DNA from: Brevinematales bacterium
GTDB lineage: Bacteria; Spirochaetota; Brevinematia; Brevinematales; GWF1-51-8
Direction: 5' to 3'
Length of the DNA: 35,738 bases
Assembly (NCBI GenBank): GCA_013177895.1
Contig: JABLXV010000037.1
Coordinates: 1-35,738 of the forward strand
Below the pieces are notes generated by a model, which was not told the DNA's origin, ran no database searches, and worked only from the letters and a program-made list of their open reading frames with translations. Positions within the stretch are counted from its first letter, which is position 1. Every line of letters starts with the position of its first letter. The position numbers were made by a program, and so were the translations under genes. Shown here piece by piece: positions 6,375-35,738 of this stretch.

Positions 6375-6440
6375 ATGGTCACTTCTAAAAACCCTCTTTT
6401 CTACCAAATTTAAAGGAAAAGAGGACAAGGAATTGACCAT
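6375..6440. repeat. Interrupted hairpin between dcd and the HD-GYP gene
   Basis: Outer arms ATGGTCA (6375-6381) and TGACCAT (6434-6440) and inner arms CCTCTTTTC (6393-6401) and GAAAAGAGG (6416-6424) pair perfectly and are nested. There is no coding potential. It could be a structured RNA leader, a terminator for dcd, or a repeat. Confidence 0.5.
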
Positions 6441-6498
6441 TGGGTGTATCTTAAAGATATATCATAAGTAATGTTAAATGTGTTAATAGTTTTTAGAA
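6383..6498. repeat. 10-bp inverted repeats TTCTAAAAAC / GTTTTTAGAA
   Basis: Perfect 10-bp arms at 6383-6392 and 6489-6498, about 96 bp apart, enclosing much of the nested hairpin. The minus-strand string GGTTCTAAAAACT at the right arm recurs close to 22327, next to another repeat. Confidence 0.45.
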
Positions 6499-6507
6499 CC
6501 GCCCATA

Positions 6508-7766: not shown

Positions 7767-8029
7767 TTTCTTTCTTTCCCACAGGGGAAAGAAAGAAACA
7801 AAGTAAGGCTGCCGCGCAGGATAAAGCTTAAAAGCGAAGCAGGGTACTCCGATTCGGGCACAACTCCTTCCTCGCGTAGCTCGGTCGTCAAACAAGTGCC
7901 CTTATTCGGATTACCCTGTAGAAGGAAGCGCTTTATAAAGCGCGGAGAAAGGCAAAAGCAACAGCCGAAAAATTAATGATTTCGGAGGCCGAGTATCCCG
8001 AAGGGATGTATCGAGGCCATAGAGGCGGT
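7767..8029 (+). repeat. Dispersed composite repeat, copy A
   Basis: The 7682-8122 gap has no credible gene. It holds a perfect 14-bp hairpin (TTTCTTTCTTTCCC at 7767-7780, loop acag, complement at 7785-7798), then GCCGCGCAGGATAAAGCT (shared with copy B). A long imperfect inverted repeat follows, CAGGGTACTCCGATTCGGGC... (7840-7861) with GTGCCC...ACCCTG (7896-7918). After it come GCGCTTTATAAAGCGC, an AAAGGCAAAA...ACAGCC block, CCGAGTATCCCG...TATCGAGG (7989-8015) and CATAGAGGCGGT (8018-8029). The last three blocks recur in copy C. Confidence 0.7.
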
Positions 8030-8122
8030 TCTGTATTTTCTCCCGCCGCTGTGCCGTGTTTCTGGGTTCGCAGCCTGTCCCCTAAGGATTTGCCGGAGGG
8101 GGAAGGAAAAGGAATACTTTAT

Positions 8123-15394: not shown

Positions 15395-15502
15395 TCACCG
15401 CGAGCCGCAACGCTGCGAAGCAGTCTGTTTTATTCCTTATTTGGTATAAAAATAGATTGCTTCGGTTATGGTTCGGCAGGCTCACCATGACGCCTCGTAA
15501 TG
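15395..15502. repeat. Dispersed GTCACCGCGAG... / ...CACCATGAC sequence
   Basis: Begins TTGTCACCGCGAGCCGC, contains GCGAAGCAGTCTGTTTT (compare GAAGCAATCTGTTTTG at about 5740) and ends GGCAGGCTCACCATGACGCC (compare GGCAGGCTCAGGATGAC near 28200). It behaves like a member of a short intergenic repeat family bounded by GTCA/TGAC. Confidence 0.4.
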
Positions 15503-22291: not shown

Positions 22292-22374
22292 AGAATTGAG
22301 TTTCAACATACATATCAATATAGGGGGGTTCTAAAAACTTAAATAGTTTCTAAAAAGTCTTTTCAAAAGACAAT

Positions 22375-22590
22375 CTTCATTTCTTTCTGGGCGGCCAGAA
22401 AGAAATGAAGCAAAGAAAGAGCCGCCGCGCAGATAAAGCTCAAGAGAAGAGCCGGGAAATCCCGTAAAGGCTTAACTCGCAAGAAAGCTCTTTTTAAAGC
22501 GCAGGATTGCCATGCTCGGACAAGCGCCTTTACGGGATTTCCCGGTAGTAGAAATCGCTTTACAGTGCGCGGGTTAAACAGCCAATTGCC
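22375..22590 (+). repeat. Dispersed composite repeat, copy B
   Basis: Fills the gene-free 22230-22682 interval. A perfect 16-bp hairpin (CTTCATTTCTTTCTGG at 22375-22390, loop gcgg, complement 22395-22410) is followed by GCCGCCGCGCAGATAAAGCT. Then comes a perfect 20-bp inverted repeat (22452-22471 with 22526-22545, around CCGGGAAATCCCGTAAAGGC). After it lies TAGTAGAAATCGCTTTACAG then GCGCGGG...ACAGCC. The conserved blocks align with copy A while both stems differ in sequence but still pair. Upstream is GGTTCTAAAAACT, also seen near 6490. Confidence 0.72.
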
Positions 22591-22682
22591 ATTCTACTAT
22601 GCAATACATATTTTGTCTATTTTGTATCTTTGGGAGAGTTATTAGAACTCCCTATAACATAAAAACAGCGAATATAAACTTT

Positions 22683-27848: not shown

Positions 27849-28110
27849 CCTCGATACATCCCGCTTTTCACGCGGGACACTCGGTTTCCGGCTGTTGGCT
27901 GTTTGTATTTTGCCTTTTTACACCGCCTCTATGCCGCGTTTCTTCTGAGCAAAATGGTAAAAACACCGTTGTTCGACCGAAGGAAGTTACGGCGTTTTCC
28001 GTTTTGCGACCCTTCTTCCCTGAAGCGGCATCATTGCGGGCGGGCGCTTGTCCCGCGCTCCTCGCGGGATTCTTTGAACACTTTCTTTCCCCTGCCGGAA
28101 AGAAAGTGTT
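27849..28110 (-). repeat. Dispersed composite repeat, copy C
   Basis: Occupies the gene-free 27753-28344 stretch, in the opposite orientation to copies A and B. Hairpin: AACACTTTCTTTCC (28077-28090), loop of 6, GGAAAGAAAGTGTT (28097-28110). Next is a TCCCGCG/CGCGGGA stem (28051-28069) and GACAAGCGCC, as in copy B. Further on are CATAGAGGCGGT (27922-27933), AAAGGCAAAA, ACAGCC and CCGAGTGTCCCGC...GCGGGATGTATCGAGG (27849-27884), as in copy A. So it shares one half with each of the others, with the blocks in a different order. Confidence 0.65.
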
Positions 28111-28189: not shown

Positions 28190-28216
28190 GTCATCCTTCG
28201 GCAGGCTCAGGATGAC
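28190..28216. repeat. GTCATCCT / AGGATGAC hairpin repeat
   Basis: Perfect 8-bp arms at 28190-28197 and 28209-28216 around TCGGCAGGCTC. Downstream, GATGTCACCCTGAGCCAATC repeats the theme. Such GTCATYCTGAGC sequences are common as dispersed intergenic repeats in many bacteria. Confidence 0.45.
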
Positions 28217-35502: not shown

Positions 35503-35598
35503 GCTTTTTTCCCAAAAGTATTCTACATCTAATATCGGTTTGGAAATAAAAAGGATTAATCCTAAACGGCAAGGAAAAACGTTTTGCGGGATAAACTT

Positions 35599-35618
35599 TC
35601 TTTCTGACACCAGAAAGA
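35599..35618 (+). repeat. Partial copy D of the CTTTCTTTC hairpin repeat
   Basis: TCTTTCTG (35599-35606), loop ACAC, CAGAAAGA (35611-35618), inside ACTTTCTTTCTG. The following blocks of copies A-C are not seen before the window ends at 35738; the last ~100 bases hold no recognisable gene. Confidence 0.4.
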
Positions 35619-35738
35619 TGATATGATAAAAGACCGGTGAGAAAATCCTTTTCTAATTCTGAATAATCAAATTGAGATAGAAAAGGAGTAGATAGGTTAT
35701 AGGTTGGCCGCTTTCTTAGGGCAAATGACCCTGACAGA

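Follow-up and report, generated by a model that had tools for sequence, protein, structure and literature searches.

The composite repeats in the 35,738-nucleotide stretch analysed here (the window) belong to a family of short mobile elements that carry no genes and whose interior consists of folded units keeping their shape while their letters change. About 25 loci with such units occur in the window's genome, and its sister species hold many more. The evidence makes it probable that these elements form a MITE family, with an IS5-family transposase as their most likely mover, and that their units are kept by shape, as a DNA hairpin or as RNA of either direction. The preliminary description, drawn from three copies, had missed two points: that these repeats form part of transposable elements, and that its three copies cannot be treated as equivalents. 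If it is shape, not sequence, that is kept, the family would offer a natural series of folds in which stems are replaced around a constant loop, and the use of DNA hairpins or read-through RNA by mobile elements would become testable.

Element ends, target duplications and empty sites

Copy B is a complete MITE-like element of 330 bp (22323–22652, plus strand) bounded by the inverted repeats GGGnnGTTCTAAAAACTC. Its left terminal inverted repeat (TIR), GGGGGGTTCTAAAAACTT, occupies 22323–22340 on the plus strand and the right one 22635–22652 on the minus strand, and the whole is enclosed by target-site duplications of TATA (22319–22322 and 22653–22656). In G001, a sister species of the same genus, the orthologous site is empty, the flanking genes lying approximately 30 bp apart with no element between them; the whole insertion is likewise missing at the G001 locus orthologous to copy A. 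No recognisable TIR was found in the older copies, including copies A and C.

A search of the genome revealed many copies and an 18-bp TIR of the family, GGGnnGTTCTAA[AT]AACTC, present as pairs about 110–680 bp apart, with A/T-rich target duplications of 4 bp in the younger copies. Such duplications flank 11 of 20 composite elements (8 when scored strictly); mismatched pairs of flanks show them in 5.8% of cases (strict, 3.2%). They are present in 14 of 16 cases among the simple elements plus the insertion sequence (IS), compared with 15% for mismatched flanks. Several features of MITEs were found here: TIRs, target-site duplication, small size (111–682 bp) without coding capacity and a TIR common to a resident IS. 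Within the window the copies sit between likely genes, and the open reading frames (ORFs) overlapping them are without support as genes. Between two genes at 6377–6504 lies a simple MITE of 128 bp, whose sequence places it in a different family though its TIRs are the same; no strict target duplication was found there. Elsewhere (locus L106, 1496–1814), a 111-bp MITE with TTAA duplications lies within a second MITE that belongs to the same TIR family.

Two facing units and three unequal copies

Copy A has a hairpin, P1, with a 14-bp stem (7767–7798, plus strand). It is followed by a structured unit (7811–7948, plus strand; cmsearch E=1.3e-26, supported by the fold) composed of an outer stem P2, an inner stem P3 and the apical loop AACTCC..GTCAAACA, and then by a mostly deleted remnant of the right part, a hairpin module with the right-end hairpin, at approximately 7949–8112 on the plus strand. 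In copy B the P1 hairpin has a 16-bp stem (22375–22410, plus strand), and the unit, likewise supported by its fold, spans 22424–22575 on the plus strand (cmsearch E=1.5e-37). The expected succession of GCCGCGCAG(G)ATAAAGCT and a long stem was confirmed in both copies, the arms being located at 7840–7861 and 7896–7918 in copy A and, for the inner stem of copy B, at 22452–22471 and 22526–22545. As RNA, the two copies fold at -71.7 kcal/mol (z=-5.7) and -120.2 kcal/mol (z=-8.0), respectively, each beating every dinucleotide shuffle.

In these folds the conserved flank GCCGCGCAGATAAAGCT finds its partner, GCTTTAT..GCGCGG, about 110 nt downstream, and is one arm of the outer stem P2, within which lie the variable inner stem P3 and the apical loop. 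The conserved flanks of the preliminary description are thus real, but as an arm of a stem, and the true extent of the repeat is larger, as the 330-bp copy B with its TIRs demonstrates. The hairpins at 7767, 22375 and 28077 do pair along 14, 16 and 14 bp, respectively; the claim that each copy starts with one fails for copy C. There the hairpin (28077–28110, plus strand, 14-bp stem, identified by the pair types at hairpin positions) ends the right side, and the unit, with outer and inner stems and the loop AACTTCC..TCGAACA, is an inverted right-hand one (27920–28040, minus strand; cmsearch E=2.6e-6 and the right-unit alignment A3), so that copies A, B and C are not in one register.

When searched by cmsearch with R1, a model built from 35 left units, most full-length elements match twice, the second match being weaker and on the opposite strand. 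The full-length relatives contain a facing pair of paralogous units. Aligned in A3, the right units have different stem sequences but the plan of the left ones: an outer stem, an inner stem about 18 bp long that contains a small bulge, and the loop AACTCGC..GCTCGAACA. Some elements possess one unit only, or extra hairpin modules. At one locus with a unit in both G002 and G001 (L235 and L236), the second unit is missing in one of the two species.

A second element within P1 hairpins

At the end of the window a partial P1-type hairpin, CTTTCTTTCTGACACCAGAAAGA (35588–35618, plus strand, start approximate), is interrupted by the left end of a multicopy element (35619–35738, plus strand), and these last approximately 120 bases are identical at 13 contig ends of the genome, the window's own and 12 others. 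The interior of this element was not found in the contigs read. Three right junctions contain the end of an ORF, available as a 33-aa fragment with no match in Pfam and a sole NCBIfam match, to IS110, at E=0.055, below the cut-off; judged from these sequences, the element that repeatedly sits in the P1 hairpin probably belongs to the IS110 family. All 10 listed upstream sequences end in AGAAAGA, and at least 7 of these 10 sites, the window's among them, lie inside a P1-type hairpin.

It might be supposed from this that other mobile elements use the unit as a target or dock, recognising its shape or its sequence, and that its spread and conservation are due to that role. At 13 contig ends the probable IS110 element does follow AGAAAGA, and among the 10 listed sites at least 7 coincide with the 3' arm of a P1-type hairpin. 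Docking, however, would account for the P1 hairpin only, the insertions disrupt that hairpin, and at least 2 of the 10 listed sites are not hairpins, such that the target may be a short sequence; as an explanation of the unit it is unlikely. Repeated insertion into hairpins would link the unit to IS110-type, RNA-guided elements. The window also contains, at 15465–15491 and 28190–28216, a repeat of the CTTCGGCAGGCTCAGGATGAC type, which we take to be a common kind of bacterial hairpin repeat.

Selection on pairing and the form of the hairpin

Selection on pairing, proposed earlier from paired changes in three copies, is well supported by the wider set. With the genome copies collected and aligned, as had been suggested, covariation is present: 95.0% of the cells of left units are paired, against 89.0±0.4 in shuffles, and two-sided changes occur at 15 of 30 pairs, against 5.9±1.5 in shuffles and at most 8 in slid structures. 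Parsimony on a FastTree tree, built from the very sequences scored, counts 30 same-branch replacements of one Watson–Crick pair by another in left units (shuffled-partner mean 1.3, maximum 8; 0 when slid) and 9 in right units (0.55 when shuffled). The outer positions of the P1 hairpin, too, show several Watson–Crick types.

Whether the selected fold is RNA or DNA was considered from the intermediates of these changes. A structured RNA read from one fixed strand would, as structured RNAs generally do, be expected to favour G·U. Changes from Watson–Crick to G·U number 10 in left and 13 in right units (23 in total), and those to A·C 19 and 18 (37 in total). As G·U does not exceed A·C in either unit, such an RNA, whether regulator or terminator, with the transposon ends incidental, is unlikely, despite the strong folds, the covariation and an apical loop conserved across units. 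The two units of an element, moreover, point opposite ways, and no Rfam match at the gathering score was obtained for the window or for seven distant loci. By crude hexamer-scored gene calls, which replaced a tally by longest stop-free run, the neighbouring genes are codirectional at 14 elements, convergent at 8 and divergent at 3, so that all three arrangements occur, with element orientation mixed. Since units face both ways and insertions occur in both orientations, parity of G·U and A·C is compatible with read-through RNA in either direction. Of the two forms first proposed, structured RNA and cruciform target, the former is thus weakened in its fixed-strand version and a DNA hairpin is possible; we infer that the most likely form is a DNA hairpin, as a single strand or a cruciform, or read-through RNA of either direction.

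Matching stems could also arise without selection, if one arm were copied from the other by template switching, and the many double changes on single branches would fit such a process. Yet close copies differ mostly on one side, and two-sided changes build up with distance: as the loops diverge, their number per comparison climbs from 0.62 to 3.0, and one-sided changes remain roughly flat (1.9 to 2.6), a pattern that favours two-step compensation over copying. The conserved apical loop would in addition require some other cause, which leaves arm-from-arm copying improbable and selection on pairing preferred.

Presumed transposase

The only DDE_Tnp_1 match detected in the genome is an IS5-family protein on contig C32, encoded between the same TIRs and flanked by TTAA duplications. 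It combines DUF772 and DDE_Tnp_1 domains and scores 270.8 bits (E 1.3e-80) against NF033581, for which the curated cut-off is 140 bits, placing it in the IS5 family. Its gene is present in a single copy and its start is uncertain, an in-frame stop lying directly upstream of the ORF used. A homologue 74% identical, with one stop read through, occurs in the sister species G002, one matching TIR adjoining it. At the right end of the IS5-type element of the window's genome (L084, 1496–2929, on C32), 128 bp are duplicated in tandem.

Because its TIRs are common to the composite elements, this IS is the presumed mover. The composite repeat would then be the interior of non-autonomous transposable elements (MITEs), mobilised in trans by a transposase that is encoded once, and pairing would be maintained by selection on the active lineage. 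The unit itself may work by shape, its variable stems presenting the conserved apical loop together with a purine-rich hairpin and linker. Against this explanation stand the single copy and uncertain start of the IS5-type gene, the older copies lacking a recognisable TIR, the tree taken from the same sequences, and the equal fit of the present data to a bidirectional RNA and to a DNA hairpin. That the elements are instead REP- or REPIN-like palindromes moved on single strands by a Y1 (RAYT) transposase is very improbable: the inverted hairpin doublets with compensatory changes do resemble REPINs (PMC3116915), but TIRs and 4-bp duplications indicate a DDE transposase, and no match to Y1_Tnp (PF01797, RAYT) was detected in the window's genome, G000, an assembly 95% complete with incomplete contigs.

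Units of the same layout beyond the genus

Across 393 genomes of the phylum, a unit model derived from alignment A1 matched 4, each belonging to the window's genus, with the best candidates per genome being scored. The layout comprises a hairpin, a CAAAGAA linker, an outer stem, a variable inner stem and the loop AACTCGC..GCTCRRACA, and it is met again, with other stems, in Pasteurellaceae prophages and in further contigs. Within the phylum the loop motif alone gives no clear excess over a reversed control; it is informative only together with a flanking stem. In viral contigs, 12 of 120 matches combine the motif with a flanking stem scoring at least 5; the reversed pattern, whose maximum score is 4, yields none in 120. 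Several of the matches show the whole layout with unrelated stems. Among the deduplicated loop matches, 15 of the 26 that have the inner stem also possess a P1-like hairpin with a CAAA[AG]A linker, as does 1 of the 117 that lack it; this distant set was gathered by its loop, and loop conservation within it is not independent evidence.

Two units were found in the phylum outside the genus, L255 in G158 and, in the same order, L258 in G005. The Haemophilus-type uptake sequence AAGTGCGGT is abundant in several of the unit-bearing contigs, in most of them 45–110 fold over expectation, and in these contigs the unit lies between P2-like prophage genes in a gap of approximately 290 bp; the gap measures 111 bp in Mannheimia phage PHL101. 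In three prophage copies (L587, L588, L589) the inner stem–loop is cleanly deleted and the outer stem kept.

Blastn of the unit against plasmids and phages, a search of viral contigs for a 23-base variant of the core, and searches of plasmids and phages with the distant units all gave no match, and a literature search for the unit sequence itself found no paper in the collection covered. The exact core does occur in 34 stretches of an 84,980-genome collection; as relatives these were set aside, none having an adjacent P1 hairpin within about 60–70 bases on each side, and they are probably unrelated.

The genomes used are drafts, the stems of distant units cannot be aligned, and statements about the family and across phyla rest on motif and layout. 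In these terms, units of the same layout in very distant bacteria suggest that the shape itself is used. It is tempting to regard the unit as an undescribed, widespread, shape-defined element whose vehicles differ, being a MITE in this genus and a P2-like prophage in Pasteurellaceae, a reading that we advance as quite possible but tentative. The presence of one layout in such distant bacteria would introduce a kind of structured repeat that has not been catalogued.

Comparison with known systems

The presumed transposase resembles those of IS5-family insertion sequences in its DUF772 and DDE_Tnp_1 domains and 4-bp duplication, a likeness that does not extend to the interior units. REPINs (PMC3116915) are similar in their inverted doublets, hairpins and compensatory changes, whereas the elements described here are much longer, have DDE-type ends with duplications and are accompanied by no detected Y1 transposase. 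Pneumococcal BOX elements (PMC3049150) are likewise modular, structured, variable in size and MITE-like; compared by plan rather than by sequence, they differ from the present family, in which the units face each other and are paralogous with sequence-different stems. The IS-derived MITEs Nezha, Correia and RUP (PMC10969869) share with it TIRs, target duplications, an intergenic position, the absence of genes, a TIR common to a resident IS and strong folds. In contrast to these, the elements of this family reach about 680 bp, and their interior, which is not AT-rich, is a facing pair of units that are paralogous, have covarying stems and a conserved loop, and recur outside the family as well.
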